This document shows, piece after piece, positions 2,307-24,464 of a stretch of 30,280 bases of DNA; within the stretch, counting starts at the first letter, position 1, and every line of letters begins with the position of its first letter. Made by a program: the position numbers and the translations under genes. Source of the stretch: a virus; the IMG/VR virus record IMGVR_UViG_3300001097_002273, positions 1 to 30,280 of that record; one strand, 5' to 3'. Below the pieces are notes generated by a model. That model was not told where the DNA came from, ran no database searches, and saw only the letters and a program-made list of their open reading frames with translations.

Positions 2307-2558
2307 ATGAAAAAGAGTACACAAGAAGAATGGTCAACTAGAAATATTACCACTCCTGAAGGGGTGAAGATTACATTTTTTGATAATAAATTTCATAACT
2401 GGAATGGTCCTGCTATTAAATATCCAAGAAGTGAAAATAAACCTGATGAATATTATCTATACGGATTCGAATATGATAAAGAAACATGGTTAGAATTCAG
2501 AAGAGATAGAAATGGTGTAGCCCCTGATAAAAACCCACAAGTTCAATCAAGATTTTAA
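2307..2558 (+). CDS. Small protein with an NGPA/YYL-G motif
   Basis: This is an 83-residue soluble protein. The central segment, HNWNGPAIKYPR followed by EYYLYGFEYDKETW, resembles the short W-x-NGPA...YY-x-G-x-x-hydrophobic repeat found in many small phage and bacterial proteins of unknown function (one repeat is visible here). No catalytic motif is evident. It has no signal peptide or membrane segment. It lies 11 bases upstream of the P-loop gene and may be co-transcribed with it. The function is unknown. Confidence 0.55.
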   Translation: MKKSTQEEWSTRNITTPEGVKITFFDNKFHNWNGPAIKYPRSENKPDEYYLYGFEYDKETWLEFRRDRNGVAPDKNPQVQSRF

Positions 2559-2569
2559 AAAGAAAAATT

Positions 2570-3100
2570 ATGAAAATAGGAATGTGCGGAACAGTTTCAG
2601 TTGGCAAAACCACTTTAGTGAATGCTTTAAAAGATTTAGAACAATTTGAGGGTTATGAATTTGCTACTGAACGTAGTAAATATCTTATGGGATTAGGTAT
2701 CCCATTAAATACTGATTCTACATTAAAAGGTCAAACGGTATTCTTATCCGAACGTTGTTCTGAATTAATGAAGGAAAATGTTATAACAGATAGAACTATA
2801 ATTGATGTAATGGCATTTACACAAAGTGCTAAATCCATTGATTTAAAGGATAAAGAATATTTTATAGAGTATGCTGTAAATTTTTTAAAAGAATATGATT
2901 ATATATTTTATATTTCTCCTGAAGGTGTTGATATTGAAGATAATTCAATAAGGGAAACCAATGAAGATTATAGAAATTTAATAGATAATACAATTACACA
3001 TTTTACTAGAATATATGGGCATAGAATTAAAAATCTACATATGTTGAAAGGTACAACTAATGAGCGTATTGAGCAAATGCTTGGGTTTATTAAATCATAA
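2570..3100 (+). CDS. P-loop nucleotide kinase-like ATPase (AAA_28/NadR-like)
   Basis: This is a 176-residue protein. A Walker A motif, GTVSVGKTT, is at residues 7-15, right at the N-terminus. A segment ending in TDRTIIDVMAF (residues 73-83) fits the DR-type motif of the kinase-like AAA_28 group, which includes NadR-type and deoxynucleoside-kinase-like ATPases. The remainder is alpha/beta with a C-terminal HMLKGTTNERIEQML element that fits the terminal helix of these kinases. The expected role is phosphoryl transfer to a nucleotide, nucleoside or related small molecule in the cytosol. The substrate cannot be read from the sequence. Phages often carry such enzymes for nucleotide supply. Confidence 0.65.
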   Translation: MKIGMCGTVSVGKTTLVNALKDLEQFEGYEFATERSKYLMGLGIPLNTDSTLKGQTVFLSERCSELMKENVITDRTIIDVMAFTQSAKSIDLKDKEYFIEYAVNFLKEYDYIFYISPEGVDIEDNSIRETNEDYRNLIDNTITHFTRIYGHRIKNLHMLKGTTNERIEQMLGFIKS

Positions 3101-3116
3101 TATTTATGTATAAATA
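3101..3116 (+). promoter_or_regulatory. Overlapping TATTTATG and TATAAATA boxes
   Basis: Right after the kinase-like gene, TATTTATG (3101-3108) is followed immediately by TATAAATA (3109-3116). The second matches the T4 late promoter box in the sense direction, 10 bases before the ATG at 3126. It is the only intergenic sense-strand TATAAATA I noticed; most others are TATTTATA. Confidence 0.4.
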
Positions 3117-3125
3117 ATATATCAT

Positions 3126-3779
3126 ATGGAAGATAATTTTAGCATTATAAATTGGAAAAACCAAACTCTTTATAAAGAATCATACGATGGTAATGATCAT
3201 TATGTGAAATATTCAAAAACCAACGATACTTACCAAGTATGGAAAGGTAATGAAATTGTAACAGATTTTTCAACTAAGGAAAGAGCAGAAACTGAATCTA
3301 ATAGACTTAATCTTTTATCTTCTATAGAAATTGCTAATAGAGAACAAGATGAATTTGAAATGCCTTCTCAACAGTATGTAACACGTTATCTTGAAAGTAA
3401 AGGAAAACAACTTCATTACCTTTATAGCAAACCCTTAAAGGATTGGGATGAATATGACCGGTCTAACTTTATAAGCATGTCTAGAAAATTAAAAGAACAA
3501 GACGATTTCGAGGACGATGAAATATCAGTTGAAATCCCTGGTGACGAAGATAATGCACCCGCTGGTGATAAAGAACTAAACAAAAAACTATCCAGACAAG
3601 ATATCACAATTAAAAAATATAAAGAAATAAGTGCCAAAATGCAGTTAAATCTTCAAAATTTTAAGAATGCTACCAATAACAATGATAAAGAAATAGCCAA
3701 AAACTCATTAAAACAACTTACTCCTGAATACCAGGCAATTAAGAAAGCGTATGAGGATTTAAAGGGTATTAATATATAA
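3126..3779 (+). CDS. Hypothetical phage protein with acidic middle and helical C-terminus
   Basis: This is a 217-residue soluble protein. Residues 1-60 look beta-rich, with aromatic-polar alternation (HYVKYSKTNDTYQVWKGNEI). Residues about 120-150 are strongly acidic (DDFEDDEISVEIPGDEDN). Residues 150-215 are predicted helix with coiled-coil character. I do not recognise the family. It directly precedes the membrane/coiled-coil pair and the terminase, and the spacing to the next gene is only 2 bases. It sits near where T4 has the small terminase gp16, but the sequence gives no reason to call it that. Confidence 0.6.
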   Translation: MEDNFSIINWKNQTLYKESYDGNDHYVKYSKTNDTYQVWKGNEIVTDFSTKERAETESNRLNLLSSIEIANREQDEFEMPSQQYVTRYLESKGKQLHYLYSKPLKDWDEYDRSNFISMSRKLKEQDDFEDDEISVEIPGDEDNAPAGDKELNKKLSRQDITIKKYKEISAKMQLNLQNFKNATNNNDKEIAKNSLKQLTPEYQAIKKAYEDLKGINI

Positions 3780-11469: not shown

Positions 11470-12450
11470 ATGTCAAACACAAAGTTTTTCAACGATGCTA
11501 TCGCTGAAGCTAAAGCTATCCGAGAAACGGCTCTTGCTAACGCTAAACTAGCATTAGAAGAAGTCTTTACCCCACAAATCCAATCTATGTTAGAAAAAAA
11601 ATTACAACAAGAGGCAGATGAAATGGATGAAGCAAAAGATGACATGGATGAAGCAAAAGACATGGATGAAGCGAAAGCTAAAGATATGGATGAAGCTAAG
11701 GACATGGAAGAAACAAAAGAAATGGAAGAAACCTACGTAGAAGAAGGTGAAGACATGGATGAAGGATCAATGGAAGAAATTGATCTAGATGAACTACTTG
11801 CTGAATTAGAATCTGCTGAAGAAATGAAAGCACCTGATTCAAAAGTCGAAACATCTACAATGAGTAATAAACCAGTAGTTGAAGCAGAAGCTGATGACGA
11901 AGTTGGTGAGATTACTGTAGATGAATTAAAAGACATTATCCGTGATATCTTAGCTGATGTAATGGGTGGTGGTGCTGCTGAAGAAGAAATGGATCTTGAT
12001 ACCGAAATGGAAGATGGTGATATGGGAATGGATGCTGATGAGGAAATGGGGGGTGATGAGATTAATATCGCTGAAAAGAAAGAAGTTGAAAAAGCTAAAG
12101 CTGAATTAAATGAAGCTATAAACGTAATCAAAACTTTAAAATCAGAATTAAACGAAGTTAATCTTTTAAATGCCAAATTACTTTATGTTAATAAATTATT
12201 CCGTAACAAAACCTTAACAGAAACACAAAAAGTTAAAGTAATTAATGCTTTTGATCGTGCTGAATCTGTTAAAGAAGTAAAGAATATTTTTGAAACATTG
12301 AAAGAAGGAATGACAAATGTTGAAGTTAAAAAACCAATGAACGAAGTTCGTTCTTTTGCTTCGAAACCAGCAGGTGTTGCTCCTAAAAAACAAATTGTAG
12401 AAAATAACGATTTTGTTGCTAGAATGCAAAAAATCGCTGGAATTATTTAA
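11470..12450 (+). CDS. 22: Prohead scaffold protein (gp22-like)
   Basis: This is the main internal scaffold on which the capsid shell assembles; it is degraded by gp21 during maturation. The 326-residue protein is very acidic and helical. It has an N-terminal FFNDAIAEAKAIRETALANAK helix, a long Asp/Glu/Met/Ala/Lys low-complexity middle, and a C-terminal segment (INVIKTLKSELNEVNLLNAKLLYVNKLFRNKTLTE split over residues about 217-255) that strongly resembles the conserved gp22 C-terminus. Its position directly before gp23 is the same as in T4. A Met-Asp-Glu-Ala-Lys-Asp type repeat makes the middle region prone to length change. Confidence 0.88.
   Translation: MSNTKFFNDAIAEAKAIRETALANAKLALEEVFTPQIQSMLEKKLQQEADEMDEAKDDMDEAKDMDEAKAKDMDEAKDMEETKEMEETYVEEGEDMDEGSMEEIDLDELLAELESAEEMKAPDSKVETSTMSNKPVVEAEADDEVGEITVDELKDIIRDILADVMGGGAAEEEMDLDTEMEDGDMGMDADEEMGGDEINIAEKKEVEKAKAELNEAINVIKTLKSELNEVNLLNAKLLYVNKLFRNKTLTETQKVKVINAFDRAESVKEVKNIFETLKEGMTNVEVKKPMNEVRSFASKPAGVAPKKQIVENNDFVARMQKIAGII
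11623..11733 (+). repeat. Degenerate MDEAKD/MEETKE coding repeat in the scaffold gene
   Basis: About six units of ATGGATGAAGCAAAAGAC-type sequence, 18-24 bases each, encode MDEAKDD, MDEAKD, MDEAKAKD, MDEAKD, METKE-like units. They are in frame and confined to residues about 52-88. Confidence 0.75.
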
Positions 12451-12470: not shown

Positions 12471-13457
12471 ATGTCAAACATAGTAAATCAACTATTAGAG
12501 TCCGCAAACCCTTATCAGTCAGTACAAAAAGATGCTGCTAGATTATCAGGGAAATGGGCTAAGTCAGGTTTGTTAGAAGGAATTGCTAACGATACCGACA
12601 GAGCTAACATGAGTATCATGTTAGAAAACCAAGCTAAACAACTTGTTGTTGAAGCTAGCACAACTGGAACAGGTGCATCTTTTACAGCTGGTACAGGTGA
12701 GCAGTATGCTGCTGTAGCTTTACCATTAGTAAGAAAGGTATTTGGACAAATTGCTGCTAAAGAATTTGTTTCTGTACAGCCAATGTCTTTACCTGCAGGT
12801 TTAGTATTTTATTTAGATTTCCAATATGGAACAACTAAAAAACCATTTACCGCTGGTGATTCAATGTACGGAACTCCTTCAGAAAATTTTGGAAACAAAG
12901 CAGAAGGTGGTTTATATGGTTCTGGTAGATTTGGTTATTCATCTAACCAATTCTCAGCATCAGTTAACGGTGTAGCAGTAGCTACAGGATCTTGGGCAGA
13001 CGTAAATTTTACATCTGAACTATCAGCTTCAGCCGCAGCTGGACAAATTAAAACAATTACATTAGCTCCTGCTTCTATCTCTGTTAATTTAGATGGTGAT
13101 GCAGTACGTTCATTTGCAGTATCTTCTGGTTCAGTTCTTGAATCAAGACAATTACCTTCATTCACTAAGCAAGATGCTTCAGGAAATATAACTTTTGCTT
13201 TCACAGGTTCTACTGCTGAAATCACAAGTGGTAATGGCTATGTAGTACATTATTCTAAGAAAACCGCTGACAATGCCAGAGGTGATTTTGAAGAAGGTGC
13301 TGCATATTCTAATCAAAGTGGTGCTGCTGGTGGTTCAATTTCAATCCCATCAATAGATGTTCAAATGAGATCTGAAACTATTGCTGCCAAAACTAAAAAG
13401 TTAAAAGCACAATGGACACCAGAATTCTCTCAGGATTTAAATGCTTTCCACAGTTGA
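12471..13457 (+). CDS. 23: Major capsid protein gp23, N-terminal part before a frame break
   Basis: This encodes residues 1-328 of a T4-type major capsid protein. Landmarks are LLEGIAND, MLENQAKQLVVEAS (residues 50-63, with a gp21-type cleavage site expected after Glu61), ALPLVRKVFGQIAAKEFVSVQPMSLPAG and FYLDFQYGT. The variable middle (residues about 140-280) is Ser/Ala/Gly-rich. The frame ends abruptly in SQDLNAFHS-stop (TGA 13455-13457), where gp23 proteins normally continue into a DAEAEL segment. That segment is present in the +1 frame from 13441. Alone, this product would lack about 40% of the capsid protein. A sequencing or assembly indel, a true mutation or recoding could explain it. 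Confidence 0.9.
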   Translation: MSNIVNQLLESANPYQSVQKDAARLSGKWAKSGLLEGIANDTDRANMSIMLENQAKQLVVEASTTGTGASFTAGTGEQYAAVALPLVRKVFGQIAAKEFVSVQPMSLPAGLVFYLDFQYGTTKKPFTAGDSMYGTPSENFGNKAEGGLYGSGRFGYSSNQFSASVNGVAVATGSWADVNFTSELSASAAAGQIKTITLAPASISVNLDGDAVRSFAVSSGSVLESRQLPSFTKQDASGNITFAFTGSTAEITSGNGYVVHYSKKTADNARGDFEEGAAYSNQSGAAGGSISIPSIDVQMRSETIAAKTKKLKAQWTPEFSQDLNAFHS

Positions 13458-14097
13458 TGCTGAGGCTGAATTAACATCTATCTTATCTGAGTATATTTCA
13501 TTAGAAATTGATTTAGAGATCTTAGATATGTTAATTGAAAACGCTCCAACAACAGAAGTATGGTCTGCTAAAGTAGGTAACCAACTTAATGCTGCTGGAA
13601 ATGGATTTGATTCTAACACATCAGGTGTATACTACACTCAAATGAGCTGGTTCCAAACTCTTGGAATTAAATTACAAAAAGTATCTAACATCATTCACCA
13701 AAGAACCTTAAGAGGTGGTGCTAACTTTATGGTTGTTTCTCCAACTGTAGCTACTATATTAGAGTCAATCCCTGGATTTGCTGCTGATACTGATGGTGAT
13801 GTAACAAAAAATTCTTACGCTTTTGGTGTACAGAAAATCGGTGCTTTAAATAGTCGTTACAAAGTATATAAGAACCCATACATGACAGAAAATACTATCT
13901 TGATGGGATTCAGAGGTAACCAATTCCTAGAATCAGGTGCTGTATATGCTCCGTATATTCCTCTTATCATGACTCCATTAGTGTACGATCCTAATACCTT
14001 TACGCCACGCAAAGGAATAATGACAAGATATGCTAAGAAGATGGTAAGACCTGAATTCTACGGAAAAGTGTTTATATCTGACTTGAATGTAATCTAA
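13441..14097 (+). CDS. 23: Major capsid protein gp23, C-terminal part in the +1 frame
   Basis: This encodes VDAEAELTSILSEYISLEI and the rest of a gp23-type C-terminus, with RGGANFMVVSPTVATILES, YKVYKNPYMTENTILMGFRG, GAVYAPYIPLIMTPLVYDPNTF and KKMVRPEFYGKVFI (split here for brevity). The in-frame ATG at 13441 overlaps the N-terminal ORF by 17 bases and is probably not a genuine start, because the codons before VDAEAEL read MLST rather than the expected AFHS. Joined with the upstream part, the length would be about 544 residues, normal for gp23 (T4 521). A clear terminator follows at 14124. Confidence 0.88.
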   Translation: MLSTVDAEAELTSILSEYISLEIDLEILDMLIENAPTTEVWSAKVGNQLNAAGNGFDSNTSGVYYTQMSWFQTLGIKLQKVSNIIHQRTLRGGANFMVVSPTVATILESIPGFAADTDGDVTKNSYAFGVQKIGALNSRYKVYKNPYMTENTILMGFRGNQFLESGAVYAPYIPLIMTPLVYDPNTFTPRKGIMTRYAKKMVRPEFYGKVFISDLNVI

Positions 14098-14277: not shown

Positions 14278-16038
14278 ATGGCAAGTAAACCTCACACTGA
14301 CGAAGTATATCGTCCCAAAAGAGTAGTAAAAAACCCAATTAATTTTAAAATTCAACTAAACGAAGAACAAAAAGAAGCAAAAGCCAAAATTTTAAACCAC
14401 ACTATTACCTTATTAGCGGGTCAAGCAGGTTCAGGAAAAACCTTATTAGCATGTAATATAGCCTTAGATGGTTTAATGAGAAGAGAATATAGTAAAGTTA
14501 TAATTACTCGTCCTACAGTCTCAAAAGAAGATATAGGTTTCCTCCCAGGAGATATGAGAGAAAAAATGGATCCATGGGTTCAACCCATATATCAAAATAT
14601 GTTTATCTTATATGACAAAGAAAAAGTTAAAAAACTTATACAAGATGAGCAAATAGAGATTGTACCTGTATCATTTATGAGAGGAAGGGCACAACCACTA
14701 ACATCTGTTATATACACTCCCGAAGGTAAGAAGTTAATGGGGGAAATATTAGTGGGTGATGAGGTTTTAGGGTCTGATGGTCAACCTATCAAAGTTACAC
14801 AAATTTTCCCTCAAGGAGAGAAAGATATATATAAAATCACCTTTTCTGACGGTTCATCTACTGAGTGTTGTGATGAACATTTGTGGGATGTAAAATTAAT
14901 CACCTCCAAAGGTTCTAAATATAAAACATTAGAATTAAAAGATTTTAAAGATGATTTGAAGTATAGGAATATTAGAAGAAAATACCAAATTCCCATAATA
15001 TCAAACCCAGTAAATTTTATTTCAAAAGAAACAACTATAGATCCCTATACCTTAGGGTGTTTGTTAGGTGATGGGTCTATTACTGGTGCTGTTACTCCTA
15101 CCTTTTCTACAAATGATATTGAAATTTTAGATTATTTTAAACTTCCAAATAATTATAATATAATTAAAAATAAAGGGGATAATTATGATTATAGATTAAG
15201 TTCCATAGATAGAAACAATATTTTAACATCCCAACTAGAAGAATTAAAATTATTAGGTACCAAATCCCACAATAAATTTATACCTGAACTTTATAAGTAT
15301 AATTCAATTGAAACCAGATTAGAAATCCTTAGGGGAATTTTAGATACTGATGGTGATATTGGTACCCACCCAAACAACACTTGTAGAATTAATTATAATT
15401 CCGTAAGTATTAATTTAATAGAGGATGTTATAGAAATAGTAAATTCTCTGGGGGGGATTACAACTTCCCCAAGAGTTTGTAGGAAAAAAGGAGAAATAAC
15501 CAAATGGAGGGATAAAGTTATAAGATGTAATTATGACTGTTATAGAATTAATATCACCCTCCCACCCAAACTCAATCCTTTTAAATTAATTAGAAAATCA
15601 ACCCAATATAAAAATACTACAAATCTTTATAGAACAATAGATAAGATAGAATTAACATCCAAAAAAGACACCCAATGTATATTAGTAGATTCTAAAGATC
15701 ACCTTTACCTAACTGATAATTTTATAGTTACTCATAATACATTCGTTGATTCACTCATCATAGTAGACGAAGCTCAAAACGTTACACACGAGCAAATGGA
15801 AATGATCGCCACCCGTATTGGAAAACATTCTAAAATGATTATATGCGGTGATACTTACCAAGTGGATTTAAAAAATAAATCTGAATCTGGGTTTAAATTT
15901 TTATACAATGCTGCCCGTAAAATAAAAAACATGGAGGCTATCACTCTATTAACCAATAATAGAGATGAAATTGTTCAAGATTTAATTAATTATTACAATG
16001 AGGCCTATGAAAAAACTAAAACAAATATTTATAAATAA
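14278..16038 (+). CDS. phoH: PhoH-like ATPase interrupted by an intein
   Basis: The extein is a PhoH-family P-loop ATPase of about 236 residues after splicing. Walker A is GQAGSGKT at 48-55, followed by VIITRPTVSKEDIGFLPGD, typical of PhoH. The intein is inserted between MRGR (residues 134-137) and TFVDSL (488-493), exactly at the conserved MRGRTF motif and just before Walker B (LIIVDEAQN, 493-501). The C-terminal extein continues with KMIICGDTYQVDL. PhoH-like proteins are common in marine T4-like phages; their role is unclear, with RNA metabolism or phosphate-stress helicase functions suggested. The ATG at 14278 was chosen over 14271, whose frame stops at once. Confidence 0.9.
   Translation: MASKPHTDEVYRPKRVVKNPINFKIQLNEEQKEAKAKILNHTITLLAGQAGSGKTLLACNIALDGLMRREYSKVIITRPTVSKEDIGFLPGDMREKMDPWVQPIYQNMFILYDKEKVKKLIQDEQIEIVPVSFMRGRAQPLTSVIYTPEGKKLMGEILVGDEVLGSDGQPIKVTQIFPQGEKDIYKITFSDGSSTECCDEHLWDVKLITSKGSKYKTLELKDFKDDLKYRNIRRKYQIPIISNPVNFISKETTIDPYTLGCLLGDGSITGAVTPTFSTNDIEILDYFKLPNNYNIIKNKGDNYDYRLSSIDRNNILTSQLEELKLLGTKSHNKFIPELYKYNSIETRLEILRGILDTDGDIGTHPNNTCRINYNSVSINLIEDVIEIVNSLGGITTSPRVCRKKGEITKWRDKVIRCNYDCYRINITLPPKLNPFKLIRKSTQYKNTTNLYRTIDKIELTSKKDTQCILVDSKDHLYLTDNFIVTHNTFVDSLIIVDEAQNVTHEQMEMIATRIGKHSKMIICGDTYQVDLKNKSESGFKFLYNAARKIKNMEAITLLTNNRDEIVQDLINYYNEAYEKTKTNIYK
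14689..15738 (+). mobile_element. Class 3-type intein with LAGLIDADG homing endonuclease
   Basis: Residues 138-487 of the PhoH ORF, 350 residues long. It begins with Ala138 (AQPLTSVIYTPEG) rather than Cys or Ser and ends VTHN with Thr488 as the +1 extein residue. The Trp-Cys-Thr signature of class 3 inteins is visible: Trp203 in ECCDEHLW, Cys467 in TQCILVDS and Thr485 in VTHN. Two dodecapeptide motifs, LGCLLGDGS (259-267) and LRGILDTDGD (351-360), mark a LAGLIDADG endonuclease with both acidic residues intact. It is therefore probably active in splicing and homing, although activity cannot be proved from sequence. The frame is uninterrupted. Confidence 0.92.
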
Positions 16039-16045
16039 ACATTAA

Positions 16046-16447
16046 ATGCCCGCTGGAAAATATTCTTTTATAATAGAACAAGGATCAACTACTAATTTTG
16101 AACTCATATACAGAGATTCAGAAAATCAACCCGTAGATCTTACATCATATAGAGCAAGGATGCAAATCAAACCTTCAGTAGACTCAGATGAAGTATATTT
16201 AACCTTATCCTCTAGTCTACAATCAGATGGAACGGGTTTAAACCTTAGCGGATCAACAGGCCTTAACCCCCCAGAGTCTGGTTCCATAGGTATTTTTATT
16301 TCATATTTAACTTCATCAGAATTAAATTTTACTCAAGGGTATTATGATCTAGAAATAGCATCAGGTGTTGGGGAGAATACAATAGTAACAAGGATTTTAG
16401 AAGGTGTAATACAGTTGTCTAAAAATATTACTACAGGAACCTTTTAA
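16046..16447 (+). CDS. Small beta-rich tail/baseplate structural protein
   Basis: This is a 133-residue protein beginning MPAGKYSFIIEQGSTTNFEL and continuing YRDSENQPVDLTSYRARMQIK. This start resembles the beta-sandwich N-terminal module found in many phage baseplate or tail proteins (BppU N-terminal-like), which usually attach fibres or baseplate parts. The rest is beta-rich and polar. It overlaps the next fibre gene by one base (TAATG), supporting joint expression with fibre parts. The specific function is not established. Confidence 0.6.
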   Translation: MPAGKYSFIIEQGSTTNFELIYRDSENQPVDLTSYRARMQIKPSVDSDEVYLTLSSSLQSDGTGLNLSGSTGLNPPESGSIGIFISYLTSSELNFTQGYYDLEIASGVGENTIVTRILEGVIQLSKNITTGTF

Positions 16448-17145
16448 TGGCAAATAATGTAACAATAAAACCCCACACAAACCAGGTTAAAGCCCAAGGT
16501 TTAAATAGATATATTACAGTCACTAATAATACGACTGGTACTAGTGTCAATTTAACCCAAACCAACCTAGAAGTAATTCAAATCACCTCACCCGGTCCCT
16601 CAGGTTTATCTGGTACTAGTGGTACTTCGGGTACTAGTGGGGTAAGTGGAGCATATATTACGGGTTCAAATATAGAAGGTGGTATACCCTTAACTGTAGC
16701 AGGTTCAGATGAATTAAGTGTTCAAACTAATTTAACATTTGATGGTGAAGTGTTAAATGTTTTAGGGGATGTTTTTGTGAGAGGTACATTAAATGCTTCA
16801 ACAAAAAATTTTAAAATAGATCATCCAACCCTTCCTGAATATTATTTAATTCACTCCTCTCTTGAAGGACCCGAAAGGGGAATGTATCTTAGAGGTAAAT
16901 TAGAAACAATTAATACTATTATTCTTCCTGATTATTGGGAAAAACTAACTAAAGTAGAGGATATTACGGTACAACTAACATCTATAGGAGAACCATCCCA
17001 ACATTATGTAAAATCTATAAATGGGAGGGAAATAGTAATAGGTTCTAACTACAATAAAATCCATTGTTTTTATATAATAAATGCACAACGATACAATGAA
17101 GGAGAATTTAATTTATTAGAACCTAAAAATTCTAAACTTTTATAA
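16447..17145 (+). CDS. Fibre-type structural protein with a short collagen-like repeat
   Basis: This is a 232-residue protein. Residues 53-68 are a Gly-Thr-Ser collagen-like stretch (GLSGTSGTSGTSGVSG). After it comes SVQTNLTFDGEVLNVLGDVF, which closely resembles NLTFDGNTLNILGSI in the 671-residue fibre (22449-24464), so the two share a module. The C-terminal 100 residues (FKIDHPTLPEYYLIHSSLEG...) look like a distinct globular domain, with EYYLIHSSLEGPERGMYLRG resembling the C-terminal heads of some phage fibre-like proteins. It is likely a virion fibre or decoration protein. Confidence 0.65.
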   Translation: MANNVTIKPHTNQVKAQGLNRYITVTNNTTGTSVNLTQTNLEVIQITSPGPSGLSGTSGTSGTSGVSGAYITGSNIEGGIPLTVAGSDELSVQTNLTFDGEVLNVLGDVFVRGTLNASTKNFKIDHPTLPEYYLIHSSLEGPERGMYLRGKLETINTIILPDYWEKLTKVEDITVQLTSIGEPSQHYVKSINGREIVIGSNYNKIHCFYIINAQRYNEGEFNLLEPKNSKLL

Positions 17146-22448: not shown

Positions 22449-24464
22449 ATGACTACAATAAGCACCTCAGGTATAGCGAGCGGAAGCGTAATTAAATCTG
22501 AACATCTTCAAAGAATAATAGACTCCTTATCTGGGATAAAATTAAATGAAATATTAATAAGTGGTTCTTTAGGAATTACAGGAAGTTTTGGTATAGGAGG
22601 CTTAGTTGAAACTGGAGTAGGAAATGCACCACAATTATTAGCTTATAATACAGGGAGTGGAGAAGTAACATTTACTCAACGAAGTTCAACATCAGGAACT
22701 TCAGGTACAAGCGGTACATCTGGTACTACAGGTACAGATGGTTCATCTGGTACATCTGGTACTTCTGGCACAAGTGGCACATCTGGTACATCAGGAACAA
22801 ATGGTACATCAGGAACAAACGGTACAAATGGTACATCAGGAACATCCGGTACAAGTGGTACATCAGGATCTTCGGGTACATCAGGTACAAGTGGAGAAAG
22901 AGGAGGTGTAACATATGATTTTGATAATACAACAACAGATACCAACCCAGGTAATGGAAATTTAAAATATGACAACTCTACTATATCAAGTGTTAGTTTT
23001 ATTTACATAAATAATATAAACCAAAATGGAATTACTCAAACTCCATGGTATGACAGTTGGGATGTTTCAAATAATACAAGTAATTTAGGACAACTACTTA
23101 TCCAAAGTAGAGATAACAATAACGTTACTAATATATTTAATATAACAGGAGATGTAATCCCTTCATCAGGTTATTATAAAATACCTGTAGCTCATATAAG
23201 TGGAGATCTTCCTTCAAACTTAGACTTACTATCTATTACATTTTCCCAATCAGGTAACGTAGGTACATCTGGTACTTCAGGAACATCTGGTGGTGTATCT
23301 ACAATAGAAAATAATTTAAATGGAAGAGTACTACTATCAGCGGCATCTCTAAACGTGATTAGTGGTAGTGATGATCTACAAGTATTAAATGGATGGGTAA
23401 CAGCATCAAACCTTTTAATAGAAGGTAATGCCACTATCATAGGCACAGCATCAATAGGATTCCTTAGAACAATAACAGGTTCAGCAACCATAATTGGGGA
23501 TGCTTTTATTCTCTTAAATTCAGATTCACCAACCCAAAGATATGCGGGTATAAAAGTAATAGATACAGGATCTGCAAATTCATCCTCATCCTTTATATAT
23601 GATGGGTTTGATAGTAAATGGGTGTGGGAATATGAAAAAGATAGTGTTGTTGGTACTTCTGTGGGAATATTTGGTCAATATACAACAGGAGGACTAGGTA
23701 CAGAGGTTGGGTTAACTCAAAACACCATACCTAAAGCAACCACTACCCCTGGTGGTTATCATATAGGAGATTCTAATATTACAGATGATAATAATGTTGT
23801 ATCTATAGGCATAAACACTACCATAACTGGAAATTTAGAAGTATCTCAAAACATAACATCATCTTTCTTTACAGGTACATTCATAGGAGATGGATCTAAC
23901 CTATCAGGACTACCCCCAGGTTATATTGTATCAAATTCAGCAAATAATAGAATTATAACATCAGTAGATTCTACTAATGGTAATGCTGAAGAAAATTTAA
24001 CATTTGATGGCAATACCTTAAACATCTTAGGAAGTATATCTGCTAGTGCAGGATTTAGTGGATCATTTGAAGGTAATGGATCTAACCTAACAGGATTAGC
24101 AGCTTTCCCATTTACAGGGTCGGCCCTAATAACAGGATCACTTATAGTAACGGGTTCAATATTTGCTACAACTATAACAGAAACCTCAGCTGAACGTTTT
24201 AAAAACAACATCCAATCCATTGAACCTCAACTAGATAATATTTTAAAATTAAACCCTGTTACTTTTGATTGGATTGATGATAAGAGTGAAGATATGGGTT
24301 TAATAGCAGAACAAGTACAAACCATATATCCCAAATTAGTAAGTTCAAATTCTGATGGTGAAATTCAAGGTATTAAATACAGTAAAATAGTCACTGTTTT
24401 AATTAAAGGTATTCAAGAACTTAAATCCGAAATAGAAGATTTAAAGTCACAAATAAATAAATAA
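22449..24464 (+). CDS. Large collagen-like fibre with S74 intramolecular chaperone
   Basis: This is a 671-residue fibre. Residues 1-45 are the ISTSGIASGS attachment-type module shared with the gene at 19694. Residues 81-153 are a Gly-X-Y collagen-like stretch, mostly GTS. A beta domain with more GTSGTSG (about 271-281) follows, then strand repeats, FIGDGSNLSGLPPGY, FEGNGSNLTGLAAFPF and TGSLIVTGS. The last 95 residues (from 577) are a Peptidase_S74 chaperone: TSAERFKNN with the expected Ser580/Lys585 dyad, NPVTFDWI, GLIAEQVQTIYPKLV and IKYSKIVTVLIKGIQEL. S74 domains trimerise fibres and then self-cleave. This is probably a main host-recognition fibre. Confidence 0.85.
   Translation: MTTISTSGIASGSVIKSEHLQRIIDSLSGIKLNEILISGSLGITGSFGIGGLVETGVGNAPQLLAYNTGSGEVTFTQRSSTSGTSGTSGTSGTTGTDGSSGTSGTSGTSGTSGTSGTNGTSGTNGTNGTSGTSGTSGTSGSSGTSGTSGERGGVTYDFDNTTTDTNPGNGNLKYDNSTISSVSFIYINNINQNGITQTPWYDSWDVSNNTSNLGQLLIQSRDNNNVTNIFNITGDVIPSSGYYKIPVAHISGDLPSNLDLLSITFSQSGNVGTSGTSGTSGGVSTIENNLNGRVLLSAASLNVISGSDDLQVLNGWVTASNLLIEGNATIIGTASIGFLRTITGSATIIGDAFILLNSDSPTQRYAGIKVIDTGSANSSSSFIYDGFDSKWVWEYEKDSVVGTSVGIFGQYTTGGLGTEVGLTQNTIPKATTTPGGYHIGDSNITDDNNVVSIGINTTITGNLEVSQNITSSFFTGTFIGDGSNLSGLPPGYIVSNSANNRIITSVDSTNGNAEENLTFDGNTLNILGSISASAGFSGSFEGNGSNLTGLAAFPFTGSALITGSLIVTGSIFATTITETSAERFKNNIQSIEPQLDNILKLNPVTFDWIDDKSEDMGLIAEQVQTIYPKLVSSNSDGEIQGIKYSKIVTVLIKGIQELKSEIEDLKSQINK
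22689..22907 (+). repeat. Collagen-like GTS coding repeat
   Basis: This is a run of about 24 Gly-X-Y codon triplets (GGTACATCT/GGAACTTCA variants), encoding mainly Gly-Thr-Ser with some GTN, GTT and GSS. Shorter stretches of the same repeat occur at 16606-16650 (232-residue protein) and about 23260-23292 (same fibre). Thr and Ser in every unit give a dense array of possible O-glycosylation sites. Confidence 0.9.

Follow-up and report, generated by a model that had tools for sequence, protein, structure and literature searches.

The window analysed here is a 30,280-nucleotide stretch of viral DNA (IMG/VR record IMGVR_UViG_3300001097_002273), with genes in the order terminase, gp20 portal, prohead protease, gp23 and PhoH. 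Gene order and best matches indicate a T4-like phage akin to Flavobacterium phage immuto, with which it shares 60% identity in the terminase and 56% in PhoH (intein-free in immuto), and we infer the host only from this kinship. A deletion of 2 bp near 13454 splits the major capsid gene gp23 into frames 12471-13457 and 13441-14097 (overlap 13441-13457), while the near-identical record L127 encodes an intact 542-aa gp23. This deletion may have arisen in assembly or mark a genuinely defective variant, and, given its effect on gp23, the window assembly may contain errors. Long GTSGTSG-type repeats were also seen in predicted structural proteins (22449-24464 and 16447-17145).

The phoH gene is a single open frame of 586 aa on the plus strand (14278-16038), whose ends match PhoH and whose middle does not. 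The flanks scored 190.5 bits against Pfam PhoH (PF02562, cut-off 27), and when joined they matched the solved PhoH structure 3b85 (residues 38-228, E 7e-39); with an ATPase domain bearing both Walker A and Walker B, they belong to the PhoH family. The middle scored 28.2 bits against Pfam LAGLIDADG_3 (PF14528, cut-off 22.5). Its features are collected in Table 1. Insertion took place between the two Walker motifs, 18 bp ahead of Walker B, and because it separates them, unspliced PhoH is likely to lack ATPase activity. The borders were fixed independently, as the uninterrupted PhoH of a near-identical record equals the two flanks joined. The preliminary description, which had read an intein in PhoH at MRGR/TF, was thus exact in its coordinates and residues, as judged from the translation and from the near-identical empty record.

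Table 1. Features of the interrupted phoH gene, in window positions.
Feature	Position	Strand	Basis or remark
PhoH N-extein	14278-14688	+	Residues 1-137, MRGR last; Pfam PF02562 and PHROG 170; protein identical to uninterrupted L046 PhoH
Walker A GQAGSGKT	14419-14442	+	Inside N-extein
Junction Arg codon AGG, putative co-conversion tract	14686-14688	+	CGT in intein-free L046 and in next relative L047
Class 3 intein, 350 aa, Hint splicing domain with nested LAGLIDADG endonuclease	14689-15738	+	Translation, family alignment, tree, AlphaFold model, Foldseek/VIA-align matches
Ala1, N-terminal nucleophile absent	14689-14691	+	Sequence; Ala start also in 158/182 distinct relatives
Block B CCDEHLW (C60-C61-D62-E63-H64-L65-W66); His64; Trp66 is W of WCT	14866-14886	+	Family alignment
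LAGLIDADG motif 1 DPYTLGCLLGDGSI, D128	15040-15081	+	Sequence; G127-D128-G129 invariant in alignment
LAGLIDADG motif 2 LEILRGILDTDGDI, D221	15319-15360	+	Pfam PF14528 over intein residues 209-278; alignment
Cys330, block F (TQCILVD), C of WCT, proposed branch-forming nucleophile	15676-15678	+	Invariant; aligned with catalytic Cys of class 3 DnaB inteins
Block G Thr348-His349-Asn350: T of WCT, penultimate His, cyclising Asn	15730-15738	+	Invariant
PhoH C-extein, +1 Thr first, includes stop	15739-16038	+	
Walker B IIVDEAQN	15757-15780	+	Inside C-extein

Splicing class and endonuclease domain

The insert was compared with the Trp-Cys-Thr (WCT) signature of class 3 inteins as defined previously (PMC7664689, PMC6195587). 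Position 1 is Ala, not Cys, Ser or Thr, and the block B His (H64), penultimate H349, terminal N350 and +1 Thr of the class are in place; W66, C330 and T348 align with DnaBi1. H64, W66, C330, T348, H349 and N350 were invariant in an alignment of 14 family members. In a set of 182 distinct relatives drawn from IMG/VR and from the genomes of bacteria, the block B H-x-W was found in 181, the block F Cys and terminal THN in all 182, and the full Trp-Cys-Thr pattern in 181; the intein pattern was confirmed as lying far beyond chance. The WCT residues, Ala1, +1 Thr and two intact dodecapeptide motifs that had been noted from the sequence were all present, both in the translation and in the 14-member alignment. 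The best matches of solved sequence include the class 3 DnaB inteins 6rix and 6bs8 and an engineered WCT gp41-1.

The class 3 type had been proposed with phylogeny named in advance as a refuting test. In a tree of splicing domains the window intein grouped with mycobacterial class 3 DnaBi1 and was split from nine class 1 inteins (GyrA and DnaBi2) at 98/95, upholding the proposal. For a class 1 intein with a WCT pattern arisen by chance nothing speaks beyond the shared Hint fold, and there is next to no probability of it, in view of a position 1 without Cys, Ser or Thr, the conservation of WCT across the family and the tree separation, by which class 1 assignment was ruled out.

An AlphaFold model of the intein (pLDDT 89.9, pTM 0.90) gave a splicing domain that superposed on M. 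smegmatis class 3 DnaBi1 with Z 20.0 and 1.5 Å over 123/125 residues. This DnaBi1 and M. chimaera DnaB1 (6bs8 and 6rix, Z 20.0 and 19.4) share with the window intein the splicing-domain fold, Ala1, WCT and the terminal HN; unlike it, they are mini-inteins without endonuclease, lie at the DnaB Walker A GK/S site and have DxxH in block B, where the window intein has CxxH. As a whole chain the model matched PI-SceI, the yeast VMA1 intein, with Z 26.9. Both have a Hint domain with a nested two-motif LAGLIDADG endonuclease, but PI-SceI is class 1, with Cys1, eukaryotic and only 20% identical. The endonuclease fold matched PI-SceI and I-DmoI (Foldseek/VIA-align), and the acidic residues D128 and D221 are retained in the two motifs, as in LAGLIDADG homing inteins.

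Near the block B His in sequence lies a pair of cysteines, Cys60-Cys61 (14866-14871), of which Cys61 occupies the Thr position of TxxH; CxxH was found in 142/181 relatives with readable block B. The pair is a possible candidate as redox partner for the catalytic Cys. Redox-responsive splicing has been reported for mycobacterial DnaBi1.

By the class 3 route, attack of Cys330 on the peptide bond between Arg and Ala1 would produce a branched thioester, the N-extein would then be handed to Thr+1, cyclisation of Asn350 would free the intein, and an acyl shift would yield uninterrupted PhoH. For its spread, the endonuclease would cut intein-free phoH at MRGR/T, and repair templated by an intein-bearing allele would bring in both the intein and the Arg codon beside it. 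We infer both splicing by this route and spread by the endonuclease from the anatomy and from knowledge of the family.

An intein-free near-twin and the junction codon

The preliminary description had predicted a 236-residue spliced product and had proposed a search for intein-free PhoH alleles. When IMG/VR was searched with the predicted spliced PhoH, the record IMGVR_UViG_3300000525_000104 (L046) was found to match it over 236/236 residues at 100% identity, with no insert. The predicted product, as a sequence, thus occurs as a real uninterrupted gene, and the allele sought exists, with a changed junction codon. A near-identical intein-free IMG/VR record encoding exactly the predicted PhoH is what is new here. 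L046/L127 and the window match over 15,355 bp (14,687 bp before the insert and 668 bp after it) at about 99.9% identity, with 11 substitutions and one 2-bp indel, and the intein is absent; such an insertion polymorphism, with an empty site in a near-identical allele, is a further mark of a LAGLIDADG homing intein.

Within phoH, the window and L046 differ at only two bases, and both of these belong to the Arg codon bordering the insert. In L047, the next relative in line, the AGG codon and the intein are likewise absent. At about 7 differences per 10 kb, our own arithmetic gives a chance of about 1.5e-6 that two would fall in the three bases beside the insert, although a pair of substitutions 2 bp apart also exists at 12051/12053, so that the junction is not the only place with such a cluster. 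The junction pattern is most simply read as the mark that recent homing, with one codon co-converted, would be expected to leave. Active homing, raised earlier as a possibility, is strengthened by this twin allele and its altered codon.

Alternatively, the intein-free record could be the derived one, an ancestral intein having been precisely lost in L046. A colinear uncultured phage, L001, has a PhoH with a 71% identical intein, as such an ancestry would allow. However, precise loss would leave the junction codon unchanged and so fails to explain AGG against CGT, for which reason recent gain is preferred. Moreover, L046 and L047 have CGT and the lack of an intein in common, and all 80 of the 80 best PhoH relatives are empty at the site, in a list whose ranking by uninterrupted alignment favours empty genes. 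We consider loss very unlikely.

An IMG/VR search with the occupied C-terminal junction sequence gave no match for the immediate donor. L001 carries its intein in the same gene at the same site, but its junction codon is CGA, not AGG, and since its exteins are about as diverged as its intein (70% aa), it is not the immediate donor. Against L001, the endonuclease domain showed no decay, with dN 0.19 and dS 1.15, values similar to the rest (dS is saturated, so that dN/dS is only rough), roughly indicating purifying selection, and its conservation equalled or exceeded that of the splicing domain.

A further explanation keeps class 3 splicing but supposes an inactive endonuclease, the intein having arrived by ordinary homologous recombination between co-infecting phages. 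It would agree with an altered tract of a single codon on one side only and with the negative donor search, and purifying selection can act on the splicing fold alone. On the other hand, both LAGLIDADG motifs are intact with their acidic residues, the conservation of the endonuclease domain is no lower than that of the splicing domain, and ordinary recombination with a diverged donor would be expected to leave longer flanking differences. We hold this explanation to be improbable. Taken from the sequence, the element is very probably a class 3 intein that bears a LAGLIDADG homing endonuclease and has recently entered the phoH MRGR/T site of a T4-like phage related to the Immutovirus of Flavobacterium.

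Insertion sites among relatives

In the similarity-ranked lists, whose counts are not frequencies, 99 of the 182 distinct relatives lie at the Walker A GK/T or GK/S of assorted ATPases (17 of the 99 in PhoH), the site of most relatives outside PhoH, and 72 lie at PhoH MRGR/T. Nearly all of the latter belong to Actinomycetota (Streptomyces, Mycobacterium, Glycomyces, Amycolatopsis and others), the non-actinobacterial ones including a Myxococcales MAG and Omnitrophota MAGs. Besides the window, the phages with an occupied MRGR/T are L001, L160, L310 and L311, and a degenerate MRGR/AQP search of IMG/VR returned only L001 and the PhoH genes of L310 and L311. M. fortuitum and M. xenopi are published carriers of class 3 inteins in PhoH (PhoHi; PMC6195587). 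Mycobacterial PhoH inteins resemble that of the window in class, gene and MRGR/T site (read in Mycobacterium genomes such as L222, L256 and L288) but lie in a chromosomal bacterial host gene and are about 34-39% identical to it. As many PhoH genes of actinobacteria carry an intein at MRGR/T and class 3 inteins of PhoH are on record, the site is not special to the window phage, and site and intein type are known in outline. Other class 3 LAGLIDADG inteins in phage PhoH (L007, L008, L010, L017 and others), 38-43% identical, are inserted at Walker A GK/T, not at MRGR/T.

The window intein and that of L001 form their own branch (100/100), placed apart from bacterial PhoH inteins in the trees, although a grouping of all MRGR inteins was not rejected (p-AU 0.586 and 0.40). 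This pair joined the Walker A inteins L150 and L173 at 95/82 in the splicing-domain tree but not in the full-length tree; a grouping of the pair with L150, L173 and L164 was not rejected either (p-AU 0.154). It is conceivable, though doubtful, that class 3 inteins at Walker A GK/T have jumped more than once to PhoH RGR/T, as both sites share a Gly-Lys/Arg-Thr context, that the phage lineage is independent of the actinobacterial PhoH inteins, and that the two block B cysteines, close to the catalytic Cys, may render the splicing of PhoH redox-responsive.

Three other observations were made among the relatives. L311, a phage PhoH intein at MRGR/T, is basal to the PhoH inteins of bacteria (100/100), a position that suggests intein exchange between phages and bacteria. 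In L148 (match 2501-3565) a phage PhoH class 3 intein occupies an apparent third site, LPG/TM, upstream of MRGR, and the contig ends soon after. L002, L132 and L166 are class 3 inteins that keep WCT with Cys at position 1.

phoH as a marker gene and the matched alleles

The sites of the phoH survey primers vPhoHf and vPhoHr (PMC6351560) lie outside the insert, at 14424-14443 (4 mismatches) and 15832-15851 (2 mismatches), and the predicted amplicon is about 1,428 bp with the intein against 378 bp without it. Surveys that choose the band of expected size would miss intein-bearing alleles, and an intein at Walker A would interrupt the site of the forward primer. Moreover, because vPhoHf is mismatched near its 3' end in the window phage, the primers may fail to amplify this group altogether. 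An intein between the standard primer sites is thus a caution for those who gauge phage diversity by phoH. Among the papers examined, the phage literature naming both PhoH and intein concerned terminase inteins (Marshall, Mic1).

The intein is an element of an ordinary class, of a known but uncommon chemical type and not a new kind, to which the near-identical empty allele adds usefulness. The near-identical phage sequence without the intein shows what appears to be a very recent arrival, a natural snapshot of a known process. Window and near-twin are matched natural alleles, nearly identical over 15 kb except for the 1,050-bp intein and one flanking codon, and with them target recognition, the length of co-conversion and the requirement of PhoH for splicing become directly testable.
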